Both the position numbers and the translations under genes were made by a program. The notes under the pieces were generated by a model, which saw nothing but the letters and a program-made list of their open reading frames with translations, made no database searches and was not told the DNA's origin. 64,000 nucleotides of DNA from Fusobacterium massiliense (lineage in GTDB: Bacteria; Fusobacteriota; Fusobacteriia; Fusobacteriales; Fusobacteriaceae), in the NCBI RefSeq assembly GCF_900095705.1, contig NZ_LT608325.1, positions 62,001 to 126,000 on the forward strand. Reading direction: 5' to 3'. Of the stretch, positions 3,084 through 62,841 are shown piece by piece. Position 1 is the first letter of the stretch. Every line of letters starts with the position of its first letter.

Positions 3084-3971
3084 ATGGAGTTTTTGCTTCA
3101 AATAATTAACGGTTTACAAATAGGGAGTATATATGCTTTAGTGTCATTGGGATATACTATGGTGTATGGAATAGCTCAACTTATAAATTTTGCACACGGA
3201 GATATAATAATGATAGGAGCTTATGTTTCACTTTTCTCTATTCCTCTGTTTAATTCTTGGGGGTTTCCAATTTGGGCAACAGTAATTCCGGCAATTGTTG
3301 TTTGTGCTTTAATTGGATGCTTAGCTGAAAAAATAGCTTACAGACCACTTAGAAATTCACCTAGGATTTCTAATTTGATTACAGCTATTGGAGTTAGTTT
3401 ATTTATAGAAAATGTCTTTATGAAATTATTTACACCAAATACAAGATCATTTCCAAAGGTTTTTAATCAAGGACCTGTTAATTTGATAAATGGATTACAA
3501 ATAAGTTTTGGTGCATTCTCTACAATAATAGTTACAGTTATATTATTTATTTCTTTACACTTATTTATGAAGAAAACAAAATATGGAATGGCTATGATAG
3601 CAACAAGTCAAGACTATGCTGCTTCAGAGCTTGTAGGAATAAATGTAGATAGAACAATACAGCTAACATTTGCAATAGGAAGTGGACTTGCAGCTGTAGG
3701 ATCTGTATTATATGTCTCAGCATATCCTCAAATTCAACCATTGATGGGGTCTATGCTAGGAATAAAAGCATTCGTTGCAGCAGTATTAGGGGGAATAGGA
3801 ATATTACCTGGAGCTGTTGTTGGAGGATTTATATTAGGAATTATTGAAAGTTTAACAAGAGCATATTTATCATCTCAACTTGCAGATGCTTTTGTGTTTT
3901 CAATATTAATTATTGTTTTATTATTTAAACCAACTGGAATTTTTGGGAAGAATGTAAAGGAGAAAGTATAG
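3084..3971 (+). CDS. livH: Branched-chain amino-acid ABC transporter permease LivH
   Basis: 295-aa inner-membrane permease with about eight hydrophobic segments. It has the LivH N-terminal pattern INGLQIGSIYALVSLGYTMVYG and the permease loop VLGGIGILPGAVVGG before the last segments. It pairs with LivM to form the channel through which the LivJ cargo passes. It follows livJ by 27 bp, with AGGAGG upstream of the ATG, and runs directly into livM. Confidence 0.93.
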   Translation: MEFLLQIINGLQIGSIYALVSLGYTMVYGIAQLINFAHGDIIMIGAYVSLFSIPLFNSWGFPIWATVIPAIVVCALIGCLAEKIAYRPLRNSPRISNLITAIGVSLFIENVFMKLFTPNTRSFPKVFNQGPVNLINGLQISFGAFSTIIVTVILFISLHLFMKKTKYGMAMIATSQDYAASELVGINVDRTIQLTFAIGSGLAAVGSVLYVSAYPQIQPLMGSMLGIKAFVAAVLGGIGILPGAVVGGFILGIIESLTRAYLSSQLADAFVFSILIIVLLFKPTGIFGKNVKEKV

Positions 3972-3972
3972 T

Positions 3973-4953
3973 ATGGATAAGAACAAAAAATTAAGTTATT
4001 TAGCAACATATGCGCTACTTATAGGATTATACTTTATCTTATTTTCTTTGATAAATTCAGGTTTTATAAGTAGATATCAAATAGGAATATTAATATTGAT
4101 ATTAATAAATGTAATTTTAGCGGCTAGTTTAAATATAACAGTAGGTTGTTTAGGGCAAATAACTTTAGGTCATGCTGGTTTTATGTCTATTGGAGCATAT
4201 ACGGCAGCTCTTATAACAAAATCTGGTATAATTGCAGGGTATCCTGGGTATATTATAGCTTTGATTGTTGGAGGTTTGATAGCAGGAATAGTAGGGTTTG
4301 TAATAGGAATTCCAGCTTTAAGACTTACAGGAGACTACCTTGCAATAATAACTTTGGCATTTGGAGAAATTATAAGAGTTTTAATAGAATATTTCAAATT
4401 TACTGGAGGAGCTCAAGGTCTAACAGGAATACCTAGAGTTAACAATTTTACACTTATATATTTTATAACTATAATTTCGGTAATATTTATGTATTCTATA
4501 ATGACAAGTAGACATGGAAGAGCTGTTCTTGCAATTCGTGAAGATGAAATAGCAAGTGGAGCTTCTGGAATAAATACAACTTATTATAAAACTTTTGCTT
4601 TTGTATTATCAGCTATATTTGCTGGTATTGCTGGTGGAATCTATGCTCATAACTTAGGAATTTTAGGAGCAAAACAATTTGACTATAACTATTCAATAAA
4701 TATTTTAGTTATGGTAGTCTTAGGAGGAATGGGAAGTTTCACAGGGTCTATTGTTTCGGCAATAGTCTTGACAATATTACCAGAAGTTTTAAGAAGTTTT
4801 GCAGAATACAGAATGATAGTATATCCACTTATATTAATAATAATGATGTTATTTAGACCAAAAGGTTTACTAGGAAGAGAAGAATTTCAAATTAGTAAAG
4901 TTCTTGCTTGCTTAAGTAAAAAAATTAAAAGAGGTGAAGCTAATGGAAAATAA
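3973..4953 (+). CDS. livM: Branched-chain amino-acid ABC transporter permease LivM
   Basis: 326-aa inner-membrane permease, the partner of LivH. LivM hallmarks are SLNITVGCLGQITLGHAGFM near residue 60 and VLGGMGSFTGSIVSA near residue 255. Only one base separates it from the livH stop, and its 3' end overlaps the livG start by 11 bp, so translation is likely coupled. The C terminus is basic and cytoplasmic. Confidence 0.93.
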   Translation: MDKNKKLSYLATYALLIGLYFILFSLINSGFISRYQIGILILILINVILAASLNITVGCLGQITLGHAGFMSIGAYTAALITKSGIIAGYPGYIIALIVGGLIAGIVGFVIGIPALRLTGDYLAIITLAFGEIIRVLIEYFKFTGGAQGLTGIPRVNNFTLIYFITIISVIFMYSIMTSRHGRAVLAIREDEIASGASGINTTYYKTFAFVLSAIFAGIAGGIYAHNLGILGAKQFDYNYSINILVMVVLGGMGSFTGSIVSAIVLTILPEVLRSFAEYRMIVYPLILIIMMLFRPKGLLGREEFQISKVLACLSKKIKRGEANGK

Positions 4954-26514: not shown

Positions 26515-27057
26515 TTACCTACTTAATTTTCTTAAAGCCTTAAAAAGTTCTTTGTTTTTTATTATTTCAACAGCATATTTCATAAAATCTTCAAATTTTT
26601 CATCATCTAAATTTAATTCATCTTTTATATAATCCTCTAATTTTTTAATTTCCTGTGGAAATAGTACAGGTCTTGTAGATAAATTAATTTCTTCTACTGA
26701 TCTATCTCCATTAAGAAAAGCTATGATTTTTTTCCAATTATCAATAGGATCTATTTTTCTAAGTAACATTATGGATTTGTAGTCTAACTCAGGGATTTCT
26801 CCATAGCCTTTTCTTTTAAGAAAACTCAAAGTTTCATCATCGTCTCTGGTGAATAATACAAGTTCACCTGCTTTTTTCATATTCATAATTTTAGGCATTT
26901 TTTTAGCCTTTCCAGTTGTTTTTAAATATTTAGAAAGGGGTAGAGATTTTACCTCACTATAGAAATCAATAGCAAAATCATTAAAAGATTTATTTTCAGG
27001 AATGTTATTATTTTCTATTATATCTACCATTGAATCAATTTTTTCAAAATTAAACAT
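26515..27057 (-). CDS. Hypothetical protein, 180 aa
   Basis: Not recognised. A soluble, highly charged, mostly helical product without signal peptide or membrane segment. It starts MFNFEKIDSM and contains KKAGELVLFTRDDDETLSFL; the end is lysine-rich. The start at 27057 follows TAGGAGG. A good promoter (27145-27173) drives it, diverging from the promoter of the 54-nt repeat RNA, so the two units share a 56-bp control region. It could be part of the same accessory module as the repeat RNA, but there is no direct evidence. Confidence 0.7.
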   Translation of the reverse strand: MFNFEKIDSMVDIIENNNIPENKSFNDFAIDFYSEVKSLPLSKYLKTTGKAKKMPKIMNMKKAGELVLFTRDDDETLSFLKRKGYGEIPELDYKSIMLLRKIDPIDNWKKIIAFLNGDRSVEEINLSTRPVLFPQEIKKLEDYIKDELNLDDEKFEDFMKYAVEIIKNKELFKALRKLSR

Positions 27058-27144
27058 AAATCCTCCTAGCACTATTAAGTGCTATTAAAAAAATTTTATA
27101 TAAATTTTTAGATATTTAGCATATCTTTTTATTTTTAGTAATTC

Positions 27145-27229: not shown

Positions 27230-27258
27230 TTGAAAAAAAAACGTTTTATTGTTATAAT
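27230..27258 (+). promoter_or_regulatory. Promoter of the 54-nt repeat RNA
   Basis: TTGAAA, 17-bp spacer, perfect TATAAT. Transcription would start near 27265, about 38 nt before the first repeat. Confidence 0.82.
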
Positions 27259-27302
27259 ATAAAAAATAGTTATTAAGTTTTATAATTTAGTGTTGGTCAA
27301 GC

Positions 27303-27534
27303 AACCGAAAAACCTGAAGAGATATGCTAGACATAAGGGCTAGTTAGTTGGCAGGTAACCGAAAAACCTGAAGAGATATGCTAGACATAAGGGCTAGTTA
27401 GTTGGCAGGTAACCGAAAAACCTGAAGAGATATGCTAGACATAAGGGCTAGTTAGTTGGCAGGTAACCGAAAAACCTGAAGAGATATGCTAGACATAAGG
27501 GCTAGTTAGTTGGCAGGCAACTGAAAAACTTGAC
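27303..27534 (+). repeat. 54-bp direct tandem repeat, 4.3 copies
   Basis: Head-to-tail units with no spacers. Each contains ACCTGAAG, GATATGCTAG, ACATAAGGGCTAG and TTAGTTGGCAGG in that order. Near-perfect identity suggests recent amplification or homogenisation. Confidence 0.97.
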
Positions 27535-27538
27535 AAAG

Positions 27539-27566
27539 AGGCTACTTATTAAGTAGCCTTTTATTA
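27539..27566 (+). terminator. Terminator between the repeat RNA and the downstream gene
   Basis: Perfect 9-bp stem AGGCTACTT/AAGTAGCCT with a 3-nt loop, followed by TTTATTATT. The tail is short and interrupted, so partial read-through is possible. Confidence 0.85.
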
Positions 27567-27567
27567 T

Positions 27568-27683
27568 TCTGTAAGAAAGTATAAAATTAAATAGCAAAAT
27601 TAGTCTTTGACGCCTGTTAGTACAAAGAGCTTGTGTTTATTGAGCTCATAAACTCATACGGCTGTAAAGAGACTTTATTTATC
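27568..27683 (+). repeat. Dispersed hairpin element, copy 9 (type 1, diverged)
   Basis: Shell end GTAAGAAAGTATAAAATTAAA, core 27602-27674 with small deletions on both arms. It sits between the RNA terminator and the ribosome-binding site of the next gene, and forms that gene's leader. Confidence 0.87.
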
Positions 27684-27692
27684 GGAGGAACT

Positions 27693-28601
27693 ATGCAGGG
27701 AAATATAGTTTTAAAGAAATTAAGTCTTGCTCAAAAAATATATGAAGAATACTTTTTAAATAAAGAGTTTTTATGTGTTTATGAAGAACAAGGGGTATTT
27801 AAAGAATTTAAATTAGTGTTTAATTCTGGACATTTTAAACATCTTACAGGAGTTGAATATATAAAAAATAATCAGGAGAGTTCTGCTAAAAATTTTTATA
27901 AAGCTGTTAAAAATGGGAGATTAAATTTATCTAATATTAAAATTGGAAACTTTGCAAAAATTAAATTGAAATATTTTCCAGATTTACAAAATATTTTTTA
28001 TTCCCCTTCAATTTATTATAAATTTTCTCCTGAAAAAGGAAATAGTAATTGGCTTTTTATAGATTCTTTTATTACTAAAAATAATAGTAAATTTAAAGCT
28101 ACCTCCTTAGGAATTACAGAAGAGAGTAACAATAAATTCGTTCCTTCATCATTATTTTATGATATTCCAGAAAGAAAAGGAAAATATATTGGTAAAGTTT
28201 TGCTTGTTGGATTTAGAAATATTTTAGAAAAAGAGACTGTTTATAATACTATTTTCAGAGTAGCTAATATTCATAATATTTCTAATGAAATTAAAAATAA
28301 ATTTAGAAATTTAGAAAATTATAATTGTTTCACAGGAAATATTTTAAAAAATTTTCAACATAAAAAAGGAGAATTTAGGTGGATAGCTAAAGATGATGTA
28401 ATCAAACAAGGTATTTCTAAAAAAATTAATGCTGAATTAAAAACTTTAAATAACTCTAATCTTGATGAAGAAAAAATTTATAAAAGTACTCCAATAGGTT
28501 ATTATAATGTTATTGATTTAGAAATATCAGAGGAAATAGAAAAAAATTTTGTTTCATTAAAACAAGAGAAAACTATAACTATCAAATCTAGTAAAAAATA
28601 A
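27693..28601 (+). CDS. Putative PBECR4-type nuclease, candidate type III toxin
   Basis: 302 aa, soluble, no signal peptide. Near the N terminus FKLVFNSGHFKHLTGVEY (His47, His50) followed by KNFYKAVKNGRLNLSNIKI resembles the PBECR4 group of Barnase/EndoU/ColicinE5-D/RelE-like nucleases; this is recognised by eye and not proven. A middle part (IPERKGKYIGKVLLVGF) and the C-terminal part are unfamiliar. It does not resemble ToxN, CptN or TenpN and is about twice their size. The start is the ATG at 27693 behind CGGAGGA; an in-frame upstream reading would lie in the repeat element. Lying behind a repeat RNA and its terminator, it is in the position of a type III toxin. Confidence 0.6.
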   Translation: MQGNIVLKKLSLAQKIYEEYFLNKEFLCVYEEQGVFKEFKLVFNSGHFKHLTGVEYIKNNQESSAKNFYKAVKNGRLNLSNIKIGNFAKIKLKYFPDLQNIFYSPSIYYKFSPEKGNSNWLFIDSFITKNNSKFKATSLGITEESNNKFVPSSLFYDIPERKGKYIGKVLLVGFRNILEKETVYNTIFRVANIHNISNEIKNKFRNLENYNCFTGNILKNFQHKKGEFRWIAKDDVIKQGISKKINAELKTLNNSNLDEEKIYKSTPIGYYNVIDLEISEEIEKNFVSLKQEKTITIKSSKK

Positions 28602-29559: not shown

Positions 29560-29685
29560 AAGAAAAGTCTCTTGAAGCCGTATGAGTTCTACAAGCTCAG
29601 AAAACACAGGCTCTTCGAACTAATACGGACGTCAGAGACAAAAAAATGTAATTTAATTTTTACTATTTAATTTTATCATTATAAG
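29560..29685 (-). repeat. Dispersed hairpin element, copy 10 (type 1)
   Basis: Core 29566-29639 in the minus sense, with a 2-bp deletion (CTTGAAGCCG) in one arm, then a degenerate shell end. Confidence 0.87.
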
Positions 29686-29689
29686 AAAA

Positions 29690-29806
29690 TATAATAAATA
29701 AAGTCTCCTGACAGCCGTATGACTCTTCCGAGCTCACTGAAATACTCTCCAGAGTAATACGGACGTCGGAGACTAATTTTTTATTAAATTTATACTTTCT
29801 TATAAA
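29690..29806 (-). repeat. Dispersed hairpin element, copy 11 (type 2)
   Basis: Core 29702-29774 of the second subtype, with AGTCTCC/GGAGACT as the outer helix and ACTCT/AGAGT as the inner helix, then the shell end AAATTTATACTTTCTTATA. It lies directly next to copy 10. Confidence 0.9.
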
Positions 29807-31182: not shown

Positions 31183-31302
31183 CCTATATAGGAAATTATG
31201 GATTTAAATAACAAAAAATAGTCTCTGACGTCCGTATTAGTTCGAAGAGCCTGTGTTTATTGAGTTCGAAATTTATATAGATATCAAGGGCTTTTATTTA
31301 AT
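31183..31302 (+). repeat. Dispersed hairpin element, copy 12 (right arm degraded)
   Basis: Shell end TATATAGGAAATTATGGATTTAAA and a perfect left arm from 31220, but the right arm (31261-31291) has decayed to GAGTTCGAAATTTATATAG. Confidence 0.8.
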
Positions 31303-31410
31303 AAAAAAGTATAAATTTAATATAAAAAATAGTCTCCGATGCCCGTATTACTCTGGAGAGCATTTTGGTGAGCTCGGAAGAGTCATACGGCTGTCAGGAG
31401 ACTTTATTTA
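31303..31410 (+). repeat. Dispersed hairpin element, copy 13 (type 2)
   Basis: Shell end AAAAAGTATAAATTTAA, core 31331-31403 with type 2 helices (AGTCTCC/GGAGACT and ACTCT/AGAGT). It abuts the stop codon of the ATPase gene. Confidence 0.9.
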
Positions 31411-33999
31411 TTATCTATAAGCAATAGTTTTATAAGTTTGAATAATTATTGTTGGAACTATTGATAGAACATAAATTTGTATAAAATTCATAGGTTCAAG
31501 AGCAGTTGTTCCAAAAATATTAAACATTTGAGGGCTTAATAAAACTAAGTTTAAAAGAACGAAACCAATAGCAAAGGCAATTATAGAAAATTTATTTTTA
31601 AAGAAACTAATAGCAAATACATTTCTTACACCTCTATAATTTATTCCATGGAATAATCTAGCAAGACATAGAGTAGCAAAAGCCATAGTAGAACCTTTCA
31701 GAGCACTTTCTTTTAATCCTATATAAAAAGCAATTATGATAAAAATAGCAATTAAGACACCTTCGATTAAAAGTTTAGTAGAAAACTTATTAGTTAAAAT
31801 TGCCTCATTAGGATCTCTAGGTTTTTCATCTAAAATATCTTCATTTTTAGGTTCAACTCCAACAGCAATTGATGGTAGACTATCAGTTAATAAATTAATG
31901 AATAATAGTTGAACTGGACTAAATATTACTGGTAAATTAGCAAGTGATGAATAAAGTACAGCTAATATCGCAGCAGTATTCCCAGAAAGTAAGAAACCTA
32001 TAGAATTTTTAATATTTCTATATACATTTCTACCAGTTATAATAGCTTTTACAATAGTAGAGAAATTATCATCTGCAAGTATCATAGAAGCAGCATTTTT
32101 TGAAACTTCTGTTCCTGTAATTCCCATAGCTATTCCAATGTTAGCTCTTTTTAAAGCAGGGGCATCATTCACTCCATCTCCTGTCATAGCACAAATTTTA
32201 CCTCTTTTTTGCCAAGCAGAAACTATTCTTATTTTATGTTCAGGAGAAACTCTTGCATAAACCGATATTTGTTCAACAGATTTTTCAAGCTCTTCATCAC
32301 TCATTTTTTCAAGTTCAATACCTTCAAGAACTTTATCTCCCTCTTTATATATACCAATATTTTTAGCAATAGTTCTAGCAGTTATTTTATGATCTCCAGT
32401 TATCATAACAGGTTTAATTCCACCTCTAATACATTCTTGGACAGCAAGTTTTGATTCTTCTCTTGGTGGGTCAATCATACCAACTAGAGCATGGAAAATA
32501 TAGTCATTTTCATCATCAGTAGTAAGATTTTTACTTTCATCTATATATTTATAAGCAAAAGTAAGAACTCTCAATCCTTCTTCTGCTAATTCGTGATTAT
32601 ATTTTTCAATTTCTTTTATAAAAGTATCTGATATAGGAAGTATATTTCCATTTTCATCAGTATAATATTTGAATCTTGTTACTAACGAATCGAAAGCTCC
32701 TTTAGTAAAGACAATTTTTTTGTTATCTTCTGTATCATATAAGACAGTCATTAATTTTCTATCTGAATCAAATGGAATCTCAGATAATCTTTTATTATCT
32801 TTTCTGATATCTCTAAATGATAAATCATATTTTTGACTAAGATGAATAAGAGCTGTTTCTGTTGGGTCTCCTATTGTATCAGTTGCATCTGTACAAAGAA
32901 TAAAACTTTTTAATAATAAATTATCTATTTTATTATTAAATTTTAAAGAGTACTCATCATCTAATTTTTCATTTATAAATATTTTTTTAACAGTCATTTT
33001 ATTTTGAGTAAGAGTTCCTGTTTTATCAGAACATATAACAGAAATAGAACCAAGTGCTTCTATTGATTTTAGCTCTTTAACAATAGCATTTTCTTTAGAA
33101 AGTTTTTCAGTTTCTAGAGATAAAACTATTGTAATAATAGGGCTTAAAGATTCTGGTATAGCTGCAACAGCAAGTGCAACGGCAAGTAGTAAAGACTCTA
33201 AGATTGTATTGCCATGATAAACATAGATAGCAAAAATAAATAAACAAAGTATAACAATTCCTAAAGTTAATTTTTTTCCAAAACTATCTAAGGCTTTTTG
33301 TAATGGAGTAATATTTTCTTCAGTTTGATCTAAAAGTCCTGCAATTTTTCCAAGTTGAGTATTCATTCCAGTATTAGTAACAAGGACTTTAGCTCTTCCA
33401 TAATTTACTAAGCTACCAGAAAAAACCATATTAATTTGATCTCCTAAAGCAGAATCTTCATATTCAAGGACAGCATCAGTTTTCTCTATCGAGTTAGATT
33501 CTCCAGTAAGAGAATTTTCATTTACTAATAGAGAGAAATTTTCAATAATTCTACCATCAGCAGGAACAATATCTCCAGCTTCAATGATTATAATATCTCC
33601 AGGTACAAGTTCAGTTGAATCAATTTCTAATTGTTCATGTTCTCTGATTACTTTACATTTTGGAGAAGACATCTTTTTTAAACTATCTAAAGATTTTTGA
33701 GCTTTAACAGTTTGAAATGCTCCTAGTAATGAGTTTAAAATAACAACTAAAACTATAACAAAGCTACTTTCTTTATTTCCAGAAAAAAATGAAATAGCTG
33801 CTGCAATAAGCAGTATGATCACAAGAGAATCTTTAAATTGATCAAAGAATATTTTTATAAGACCGTCTTTTTCTTTTTCAATAAATTTGTTTTCTCCGTA
33901 CTTTTTTCTTCTACTAGCAACATCATCTTCAGTTAAACCAGATATTTTTGTTTGAAATTCTTCAAACAATTCTTCTTTTGTTCGTGTAAAATATTTCAT
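31411..33999 (-). CDS. P-type cation-transporting ATPase, probable Mn2+ exporter
   Basis: 862-aa P2-type ATPase with ten predicted membrane helices. Phosphorylation motif DKTGTLTQNKMTV, actuator loop LTGESNSIEK, the helix-4 motif IPESL and the hinge MTGDGVNDAPALK are all present. The sequence alone suggests a Ca2+/Mn2+ pump. A yybP-ykoY riboswitch with its terminator lies upstream on the same strand (34309-34425), and that RNA senses Mn2+ and controls exporters, including P-type ATPases of the YoaB/MgtA type. Mn2+ export is therefore the best guess. Two hairpin elements lie in the long leader between the riboswitch and the start codon. Confidence 0.87.
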   Translation of the reverse strand: MKYFTRTKEELFEEFQTKISGLTEDDVASRRKKYGENKFIEKEKDGLIKIFFDQFKDSLVIILLIAAAISFFSGNKESSFVIVLVVILNSLLGAFQTVKAQKSLDSLKKMSSPKCKVIREHEQLEIDSTELVPGDIIIIEAGDIVPADGRIIENFSLLVNENSLTGESNSIEKTDAVLEYEDSALGDQINMVFSGSLVNYGRAKVLVTNTGMNTQLGKIAGLLDQTEENITPLQKALDSFGKKLTLGIVILCLFIFAIYVYHGNTILESLLLAVALAVAAIPESLSPIITIVLSLETEKLSKENAIVKELKSIEALGSISVICSDKTGTLTQNKMTVKKIFINEKLDDEYSLKFNNKIDNLLLKSFILCTDATDTIGDPTETALIHLSQKYDLSFRDIRKDNKRLSEIPFDSDRKLMTVLYDTEDNKKIVFTKGAFDSLVTRFKYYTDENGNILPISDTFIKEIEKYNHELAEEGLRVLTFAYKYIDESKNLTTDDENDYIFHALVGMIDPPREESKLAVQECIRGGIKPVMITGDHKITARTIAKNIGIYKEGDKVLEGIELEKMSDEELEKSVEQISVYARVSPEHKIRIVSAWQKRGKICAMTGDGVNDAPALKRANIGIAMGITGTEVSKNAASMILADDNFSTIVKAIITGRNVYRNIKNSIGFLLSGNTAAILAVLYSSLANLPVIFSPVQLLFINLLTDSLPSIAVGVEPKNEDILDEKPRDPNEAILTNKFSTKLLIEGVLIAIFIIIAFYIGLKESALKGSTMAFATLCLARLFHGINYRGVRNVFAISFFKNKFSIIAFAIGFVLLNLVLLSPQMFNIFGTTALEPMNFIQIYVLSIVPTIIIQTYKTIAYR

Positions 34000-34072: not shown

Positions 34073-34188
34073 TTAATAAAGTCTCTTGACAGCCGTATGA
34101 GTTCTACGAGCTCAGAAAACACAGGCTCTTCGAACTAATACGGACGTCAGAGACTATTAATTATTATTAATTTATATTTTCTTATATA
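34073..34188 (-). repeat. Dispersed hairpin element, copy 14 (type 1)
   Basis: Intact core 34080-34155 in the minus sense and shell end AATTTATATTTTCTTATATA. It lies inside the ATPase mRNA leader. Confidence 0.9.
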
Positions 34189-34189
34189 A

Positions 34190-34309
34190 CAAATAAAGTC
34201 TCTTGACAACCGTATAAGTTTTACAAACTCATAAAATATAGGCTATTTAAACTAATGTAGACACCAGAAACTATTAATAACTATTAAATTTATATTTTTC
34301 TATATAATA
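34190..34309 (-). repeat. Dispersed hairpin element, copy 15 (decayed type 1)
   Basis: Core 34197-34272 has the same length as type 1 with many transitions (CCGTATAAGTTTTACAAACTC, CTAATGTAGACACC). It is tandem with copy 14, also inside the ATPase leader. Confidence 0.82.
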
Positions 34310-49821: not shown

Positions 49822-49990
49822 GATGAAGATATGAGGAGAGATTTTTTATTAAAAATAAAAAACACCGAAGAAGTAACTCTTTCAGGTAAAAGGACTCATA
49901 TTGGACGAACCTCTGGAGAGATTATCATAAAGATAACACCGAAGGAGCAAAGCCATTTTGGCCTAAACTCTCAGGTAAAAGGACGGAGGA
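49822..49990 (+). promoter_or_regulatory. Tandem glycine riboswitch (gcvT type)
   Basis: Two consecutive aptamers. The first runs from GAGGAGAG through ACACCGAAGAAGTAA, CAGGTAAAAGGACTC and GGACGAACCTCTGGAGAG. The second holds ACACCGAAGGAGCAAAGCC, CAGGTAAAAGGACGGAGG. These conserved cores define the cooperative glycine riboswitch, well studied from F. nucleatum. Downstream of it come a small GAATTG/CAATTC hairpin and a terminator, then a glycine/alanine symporter gene. Confidence 0.95.
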
Positions 49991-61710: not shown

Positions 61711-62841
61711 ATGAAAATAGCAATTTTAGGTTTTGGTACAGTAGGTAGTGGAGTTTATGAAATTTCAAAAACTTCTAAAAATATTGAAGTAAAAAAAGTT
61801 CTTGAAAAAGATTTAACTAAGATAGATATAGCAACAGATAATTATGATGAAATTATAAATGATAAAGAAATAGAATTAGTTGTTGAATGTATGGGAGGAC
61901 TTCATCCTGCTTATGAGTTTATTATAAAAGCATTACAAAACAAAAAACATGTAGTTAGTGCAAATAAAGCAGTTATAGCTAAGTATCTTGATGAATTTTT
62001 GAAAGTTGCTCAAGAGAATAATGTAGATTTTCGTTTTGAAGCAAGTGTTGGAGGTGGGATTCCTTGTTTAGCAGGAATACAAAAAATTCGTCGTGTAGAA
62101 AATATAGATAAATTTTATGGAATTTTTAATGGTACAAGCAATTTCATTCTAGATAATATGTATAGATTTGAAAATGAGTTTTTTACAACATTAAAAACTG
62201 CACAAGAATTAGGATATGCAGAAGCTGATCCAAGTGCAGATATAGATGGTTACGATGTCACAAATAAAGTTATAATTAGTTTTGCTTTAGCTTATGATGG
62301 TTTTATAAAAAATGAATTTCCATGTTTTACTTTAAGAAATATAACAAAAGAAGATATATTATATTTCAAGAAACAAGGATTTATAGCTAAGTATATAGGA
62401 GAAGCTATCACAAAAGATGATTTGTATGAAGCAAGTGTAATGCTTAATTTATTCCCTGTTAATGCTTTAGAAGGAAATGTTTTAAGCAACTACAATATAG
62501 TTACTGTTAAATCTCATACTATGGGAGAAGTTAAATTTTATGGTCAAGGAGCTGGAAAGTTACCGACTGCCAATGCAATAGTACAAGATATTTTTGATAT
62601 TATTGATAATATTAATTATCATAAAATTAATATAGAAAAAGAATATAAATATTCTTCAAATTTATTAAAACATAAGTATGTTCTTCGTTTTAATGAGAAA
62701 GTCGAATCAGAAAAAATTGAAAAAATTGATAATGATAATGGAAGATATTACTGCTATACAAAAGAAATTACTCAAAAAGAATTGTTAGATTTAATAGGAA
62801 ATTCAGATTGTTTAGTTACAAAATTAAGTGAGGAGTTATAA
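61711..62841 (+). CDS. hom: Homoserine dehydrogenase
   Basis: 376-aa NAD(P)H enzyme reducing aspartate semialdehyde to homoserine. Rossmann motif GFGTVGSGVYEI, SANKAVIAKY, GTSNFILDNM and the catalytic stretch EADPSADIDGYDVTNK. The C-terminal part is short and lacks a clear ACT domain. The start at 61711 has AGGCAGGA ahead, which lies inside the end of res; an ATG at 61693 is in frame but lacks a site. Confidence 0.92.
   Translation: MKIAILGFGTVGSGVYEISKTSKNIEVKKVLEKDLTKIDIATDNYDEIINDKEIELVVECMGGLHPAYEFIIKALQNKKHVVSANKAVIAKYLDEFLKVAQENNVDFRFEASVGGGIPCLAGIQKIRRVENIDKFYGIFNGTSNFILDNMYRFENEFFTTLKTAQELGYAEADPSADIDGYDVTNKVIISFALAYDGFIKNEFPCFTLRNITKEDILYFKKQGFIAKYIGEAITKDDLYEASVMLNLFPVNALEGNVLSNYNIVTVKSHTMGEVKFYGQGAGKLPTANAIVQDIFDIIDNINYHKINIEKEYKYSSNLLKHKYVLRFNEKVESEKIEKIDNDNGRYYCYTKEITQKELLDLIGNSDCLVTKLSEEL

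Follow-up and report, generated by a model that had tools for sequence, protein, structure and literature searches.

A candidate PBECR4 toxin and its predicted repeat-RNA antitoxin in Fusobacterium massiliense

We analysed a 64,000-nt stretch of contig NZ_LT608325.1 of Fusobacterium massiliense (positions 62,001 to 126,000, forward strand; hereafter the window), in which positions 27230-28601 hold a promoter, an array of tandem repeats, a terminator and a gene for a 302-aa protein. Judging from these letters and from related loci, we consider it likely that this is a type III-like toxin-antitoxin locus, in which a PBECR4 endoribonuclease would be the toxin and the RNA of the array would neutralise it; we also infer an anti-phage role for the locus. 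Comparative analysis further indicates that the hairpin loops of the array RNA pair with its linkers in mirror order, the first with the last.

Layout of the locus and its predicted nuclease

Type III systems have been described as a promoter, a tandem-repeat RNA, a Rho-independent terminator and a toxin gene (PMC8860590, PMC5086642), and the window locus has the same order of parts as ToxIN/AbiQ, CptIN and TenpIN, with a promoter, a tandem array, a terminator and a following toxin frame all found. The original prediction, made from this stretch alone, had proposed a promoter, 54-nt tandem units with stops in all six frames, a terminator and a 302-aa gene, and each of these was present on re-analysis. 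The features of the locus are listed below.

27230..27258, + strand: sigma-70-like promoter, TTGAAA-17-TATAAT with TG before the -10 (11/12 matches)
27292..27305, + strand: first hairpin (hp0), GUUG-[GUCAAG]-CAAC, whose loop can pair over 6 bp with the last linker CUUGAC
27303..27533, + strand: predicted RNA antitoxin array, 54-nt units x4.3 (Tandem Repeats Finder, covariance model)
27529..27534, + strand: last linker CUUGAC; as the counterpart of the hp0 loop it closes the array (sequence; the minimum-energy fold pairs GUCAAG with CUUGAC too)
27536..27562, + strand: intrinsic terminator between RNA and gene (12 pairs counted)
about 27600..27682, + strand: degenerate copy of a dispersed ~100-nt repeat, lying between the terminator and the ribosome-binding site (repeat families D8, D9, I9-I11)
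27693..28601, + strand: predicted toxin gene, 302 aa (ATG at 27693, GGAGGA at 27684-27689, 302 codons)
27729..28136, + strand: nuclease domain of the PBECR4 family over residues 13-148, from the Pfam match (conserved are His50, Lys93 and, just behind the domain, Ser153)
28305..28598, + strand: C-terminal domain, residues 205-302, which fusobacterial elements also carry on ToxN, CptN, zeta and ArdC proteins

The array was the top-scoring one of the window in Tandem Repeats Finder (period 54, 4.3 copies, 98% matches, score 441). Every frame of 27263-27562 carried 5 to 12 stops, and the longest open run was 26 codons. Terminator-like sites numbered 2 in 3 kb vs. 0.5 expected by shuffling, and promoter-like sites in the region were not enriched as such (19 vs. 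19.0 in shuffles).

The 302-aa protein matched Pfam PF18813 (PBECR4) at 7e-19 with 69.4 bits (curated cut-off 27), which bears out an earlier guess of a PBECR4-type nuclease motif, and PBECR4 was the only result of a Pfam scan up to E 1. In an alignment of 16 members, His50, Leu51, Gly53 and Lys93 were invariant, while position 153 was Ser or Thr in 16/16. Five of the six PBECR families are reported to have a His in the N-terminal part plus a C-terminal Ser/Thr (Iyer 2017, PMC5512222), and His50 and Ser153, which fit this catalytic pattern, form the predicted active site. The PBECR domains of phages and polyvalent proteins in that study share both the nuclease family and the predicted active site; they are treated there as effectors, and neither 'noncoding RNA' nor 'type III toxin' appears as a term in its main text. 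An AlphaFold model reached good confidence over most of residues 1-190, apart from lower values at about 101-140; the C-terminal 100 residues were not confidently modelled. A PDB sequence search with the protein gave a single chance match (E 0.76), PHROGs and PADLOC held no family for it, and no relative was found when it was searched in genome contigs.

Fold and covariation of the repeat unit

Each unit of the window array consists of a stem P (CUAG..CUAG), a hairpin S1 (GUUG..UAAC or CAAC), an A-rich spacer and a linker (CCUG; CUUG in the last). Across 31 units, stem P and hairpin S1 were paired in 97.8% of cells vs. 71.6% when shuffled, with 79 double-change cells (27.1 shuffled) and compensatory changes at 8/9 pairs; sliding the partner by 1-3 columns lowered the pairing to 24-42%. 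A chance or coding repeat was rejected on the grounds of the six-frame stops together with this covariation. We also rejected a known Rfam RNA as the identity of the array, since no family matched it at gathering scores in the window or at E up to 1 at locus L012.

When the 64-kb window was scanned with a covariance model of the unit, only the four array units were significant (E 1.5e-15 to 2e-12; next 0.08), the first and last of which were among the model's own sequences. Hairpin spacing gave unit lengths of 43-57 nt across arrays, mostly 50-57 nt. The repeat length of 54 nt had been put forward as a sign of novelty, but it is weak evidence because TenpI and CptI repeats are given as 50 and 45 nt (PMC12373285).

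Pairing of loops and linkers in mirror order

Pairing was evaluated in 16 non-redundant three-hairpin arrays, with 4 Watson-Crick pairs required and 5000 shuffles for comparison. The arrays came from 24 hand-chosen loci, with near copies mostly left out, of which 20 were used and 16 remained after merging those with identical loops and last linker; the window (identical inner units), L036 and L093 (one parsed hairpin) and L073 (a near copy of L031, with an hp1 that misfits its own linker) were left out of the 20. The loop of the last hairpin, hp2, paired with the first linker, L0, in 16/16 arrays (shuffled mean 3.5, max 10), and the hp1 loop paired with its own linker, L1, in 14/16 (shuffled mean 3.2, max 9). 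For the last linker, L2, the summed length of pairing with the hp0 region was 85 (shuffled mean 67, max 78). The values observed for hp2:L0, hp1:L1 and L2:hp0 were reached in 0/5000 shuffles, which keep the relatedness among arrays. Pairing of the hp2 loop with its own linker L2 occurred in 0/16 arrays (2 if G-U is allowed), and we therefore rejected the idea that each unit is an independent pseudoknot, to which the array of L029 is the exception.

In the window, hp0 GUCAAG fits the last linker CUUGAC; because the inner units are identical, the linker used by each inner loop cannot be told there. Three further arrays judged by eye, in L161 and L193, agree with the mirror order (the first hairpin of L161 is not settled). 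By comparative pairing, the loops thus pair outside their own hairpin, as in the pseudoknots of type III RNAs. However, the loop pairs within its own unit in known type III RNAs, whereas loops of the present class pair across units in mirror order. This rule, first loop with last linker, is open to break-and-restore mutation.

Arrays at PBECR4 genes of other bacteria

PF18813 matches were present in 14/98 Fusobacteriota genomes, in 33/295 genomes of one Bacillota order and in 4/398 of its phylum, where both Bacillota counts include the centre genome that had been picked because it had a match. Phages and plasmids also carry PBECR4, and a single query matched 8 phage and 93 plasmid records. Arrays homologous to that of the window precede PBECR4 in records of Enterococcus, Streptococcus, Lactobacillus, Latilactobacillus, Erysipelothrix, Avibacterium and Actinobacillus or their phages. 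The order of array, terminator and toxin proposed for the window recurs, with these homologous arrays, at PBECR4 genes of distant bacteria, which lends it comparative support.

An array of this class (class A; unit covariance model, E 0.01 or better) was found at 50/97 PBECR4 loci of phages, plasmids and genomes, of which 17 had supplied the covariance model and many are near-identical copies. L007, L025, L038-L043, L045 and L048 (copies or second halves), as well as L001-L005 and L028, were left out of the 97. Homologues without an upstream array, which had been named beforehand as speaking against the type III proposal, do occur in part: 47/97 PBECR4 loci had no class-A match, and at two of these (L036 and L049) an array is visible by eye.

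Two other Fusobacterium genomes have the flanking rluA-like gene (80-81% identity), with no PF18813 match and no array in either genome. Neither PBECR4 nor the adjacent gene (window 26515-27072) had a match in the 1.5-kb flanks searched in these two genomes. Because these congeners keep the flanking gene without PBECR4 or the array, the window locus looks accessory.

Arrays on the other strand or without a PBECR4 gene

From genome scans, 31 array matches were followed up; this number excludes the array of the window, the G018 and G032 arrays (whose place before PBECR4 had been established earlier), second units within one array and any match lacking a locus. Downstream of 18 of them stood PBECR4, whole or in part, several being only short remnants, and 13/31 had none. 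Among the latter, no PBECR4 gene followed within 1.5 kb of two units in L170, L174, L178, L181 and L189 and of one in L180. L172 lies at a contig end, L158 and L160 are single-unit matches, the array of L161 stands before an ATPase-like gene, the weak matches of L162 and L166 are probably chance, and the last of the 13 is L193, described below. The 21-residue matches of L170, L174 and L181, where the query frame runs into the array, and a weak match in L178 (E 7.9e-4), on the other side of the array, were not counted as PBECR4.

In a Ligilactobacillus salivarius plasmid (L029 2569-2678, minus strand), a class-A array with its own terminator lies convergent to, and directly behind, the PBECR4 gene. 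Two class-A arrays lie directly before a ToxI-ToxN locus, with no PBECR4 gene, in L193 (G336:C80, reverse complement 1210-1560); a mobile element possibly keeps them as solitary antitoxins or as decoys. Since an array can lie behind its gene on the other strand and some arrays stand alone, the array RNA probably acts in trans.

Proposed mechanism and alternative explanations

From the order of the parts, one promoter would give a transcript of about 300 nt, most copies of which would stop at the terminator, and occasional read-through would give the toxin mRNA; with the terminator between RNA and gene, the RNA would be made in excess of that mRNA. Comparative evidence suggests that it folds as one closed body, with two covarying hairpins per unit, the mirror pairing and hp0 joined to the last linker. 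In this form it would bind and mask the nuclease. If transcription stopped, as in phage infection, or if the locus were lost, the RNA would decay first, as in known type III systems, and the freed enzyme would then cut RNA and halt growth.

Several observations weigh against this reading. As for the RNA, further pair types in the 31 units were not in excess (17 vs. 16.8 in shuffles), the whole window leader was not clearly more stable than its shuffles (fold z -1.18 without pseudoknots), each loop of the L029 array pairs with its own linker, contrary to the mirror rule, and the hp1 loop CAAG of L073 misfits its own linker CUCG. With respect to the protein, Foldseek matched the predicted model to no PDB entry with an E of 0.001 or lower (best 0.15), and a VIA-align fold search gave no reliable PDB relative (best Z 2.6). 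Phage head proteins and polyvalent proteins are also reported to contain PBECR domains (Iyer 2017, PMC5512222), nine of our PBECR4 matches fall within open frames at least 1000 aa long, and a scan of seven of the nine showed no class-A RNA. Finally, L009 has no leader before its solo PBECR4 gene, and in the window the repeat element between the terminator and the ribosome-binding site could lower toxin expression.

The leader RNA could instead be a cis-acting attenuator or ligand-sensing element that controls read-through into the gene of a PBECR4 effector without ever binding the protein. Array and terminator do lie in the 5' leader at all array loci that were read except L029, which is an attenuator layout, and the mirror pairing gives a closed fold able to compete with an alternative one. 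Nonetheless, we regard such a regulator as unlikely considering that in L029 the array lies behind the gene and on the other strand, that arrays persist without PBECR4 in the following 1.5 kb (L170, L174, L178, L180, L181, L189, L193), and that the C-terminal domain of the window toxin also occurs on known type III toxins. Slightly less probable again is that PBECR4 serves mobile elements as an anti-host or anti-defence RNase (Iyer 2017), with the RNA as its substrate, guide or packaging partner. This would be in line with the members on phages and plasmids, with the large open frames that bear the domain and with the suggestion in the same paper (PMC5512222) of RNA targets such as crRNA. It agrees less well with small solo promoter-RNA-terminator-PBECR4 cassettes in large genome contigs (e.g., L093 in a 3.4-Mb contig, where a prophage is possible), and a folded partner that outnumbers the mRNA is more readily explained as an inhibitor than as a guide.

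We give very little credence to the array being a mere tandem duplication of a dispersed repeat, without link to the gene. Dispersed repeats do occur in the neighbourhood, but the array units are found at a single place in the source genome and turn up again, with stems that covary, beside PBECR4 in distant bacteria; the mirror pairing, the stem covariation and the arrays at about half of the PBECR4 loci refute this explanation.

Relation to known RNA-neutralised toxins

The predicted type III-like locus of the window does not belong to ToxIN or CptIN by sequence. This membership was rejected because its toxin has no detectable similarity to ToxN or CptN (Pfam, hhalign), and the homology that marks ToxIN, CptIN and TenpIN was accordingly not found in the Pfam scan or in direct comparison with ToxN and CptN; an hhalign comparison of the PBECR4 alignment gave E 0.37 with one ToxN and E 0.068, over 11 columns, with one CptN. 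The structures of ToxN and CptN have been grouped with those of MazF/Kid/CcdB (PMC5086642). Whether the window protein has a MazF/Kid-like fold was approached through the fold searches with its model, which gave no reliable PDB match. In the AbiF-RCd22 system of C. difficile, a structured RNA with its own terminator lies directly before the toxin gene, as here, and RCd22 RNA neutralises AbiF in trans and is described as type III-like (PMC12373285). AbiF itself is not a PBECR protein; it is a member of the Abi_2/AbiD/F family, for which structural ties to the ancestors of Cas13 are described (PMC12373285), and its RNA motif (RF03085) was not found in the window or in the 28 loci scanned.

A C-terminal domain common to several toxins

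In a congener, residues 205-302 of the window protein have matches at the C-terminal ends of two proteins, an ArdC-MPTase polyvalent protein and a ToxN. Further matches, on the Fusobacterium polymorphum plasmid pKKCOM1330A, are a CptN (NCBIfam CptIN model 7.5e-32) and a second ToxN (Pfam 3.9e-47). Another CptN-like gene (by eye), with a 46-nt array, bears the same domain. On the plasmid (L028 1451-7703), zeta, CptN and ToxN all end in this ~100-aa domain. Type III toxins make up 4/6 other carriers (two ToxN, two CptN-type). Repeat arrays precede both CptN-type carriers and the plasmid ToxN, and about one unit is seen by eye at the other ToxN carrier. A profile of the domain matched 4/98 Fusobacteriota genomes, one of them weakly, and tblastn with one domain copy matched 1/72,556 plasmid records.

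As the domain is found on unrelated toxins, these alignments indicate that it is exchanged between them in fusobacterial elements. As an accessory module of toxins and of an ArdC-type protein, it might, at a guess, serve in delivery or docking. The domain also bears on the protein size, which had been offered as a second sign of novelty: 302 aa does differ from the described families, but the protein is long because the C-terminal domain is added, and array-linked PBECR4 homologues without it are mostly about 170-220 aa.

Other leaders of PBECR4 genes

Solo PBECR4 genes without an array mostly have another structured-looking leader, usually with a terminator, as judged by eye at the loci read (nine solo loci without an array are fragments, copies or not read, and the leader of L099 is unclear). 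A terminator scan scored at 31/44 solo PBECR4 genes and at 7/9 Leptotrichiaceae-type genes, and it misses mismatched stems such as those seen by eye at L013, L016, L027 and L035.

Two Rfam families, typed only as small RNA (sRNA) genes, were among these leaders; they lie upstream of PBECR4 like the array but are families separate from it, and neither was present in the window. The drum RNA (RF02958), for which Weinberg 2017 is reportedly the source, occurred at 29 places in 24/189 genomes, 25 of them above the Rfam cut-off. It stood directly upstream of a PBECR4 gene or remnant in 27/29 places (L114-L142): the next gene was PBECR4 in 21, by a profile from 32 proteins that includes the locus of L131, one of the 21; a remnant lay directly downstream in 6; and neither was present at L120 and L137. 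The Bacilli-1 RNA (RF02931) occurred at 8 places in 8/246 genomes (6 above the cut-off), with PBECR4 next at 4/8 places and not at the other 4.

Another common single-copy leader, with motifs like GCCYGACAGAGGC and ATCTGATCRYTRGTC (by eye), precedes PBECR4 in L101-L104, L106 and L108, and those of L101, L103, L104 and L106 had no Rfam match at gathering score. A single-copy leader with a CTCGGTCATTGGAG-like start precedes PBECR4 in L010, L013 and L016, and is perhaps a diverged array.

In open-access full text, preprints excluded, we found no paper joining PBECR4, an array RNA and a toxin-antitoxin role, nor any naming PBECR4. Searches of the same kind returned no PBECR system in titles or abstract starts of the type III toxin-antitoxin literature, and no paper on drum or skipping-rope RNA that, judging by its title, concerned toxins.

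Taken together, we lean somewhat towards a broader view in which PBECR4 nucleases would make up an independent toxin class neutralised by RNA, widespread across Fusobacteriota, Bacillota, Pasteurellaceae, high-GC viral contigs, phages and plasmids, and unrelated in sequence to ToxN. Its antitoxins would comprise the mirror-folded array and several single-copy RNAs, which would give drum and Bacilli-1 a function, and in fusobacterial elements the C-terminal domain on PBECR4, ToxN, CptN, zeta and ArdC would serve as a common tag for delivery or docking. Published accounts describe the accepted type III toxins as one homologous group (PMC12373285, PMC5086642). If our broader view is true, a second toxin lineage would have come separately under RNA control, so that RNA-neutralised toxins evolved more than once, and two Rfam sRNA families would gain a partner.

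Neighbouring elements

Copies of the dispersed ~100-nt repeat, some of them inverted, lie at window positions 27600-27682, 29560-29781, 31204-31414 and 34075-34290; the first of these, behind the array terminator, had escaped the original prediction. Beside PBECR4 loci elsewhere, a skipping-rope RNA (RF02924) occurs just downstream of the Bacilli-1/PBECR4 locus of L107 (1414-1491, minus strand), and in an Enterococcus phage record (L027) matches to the RatA antitoxin RNA lie around the PBECR4 locus at 2601-2688, 3678-3763 and 4118-4203. Positions 49823-49989 of the window hold tandem glycine riboswitch aptamers.
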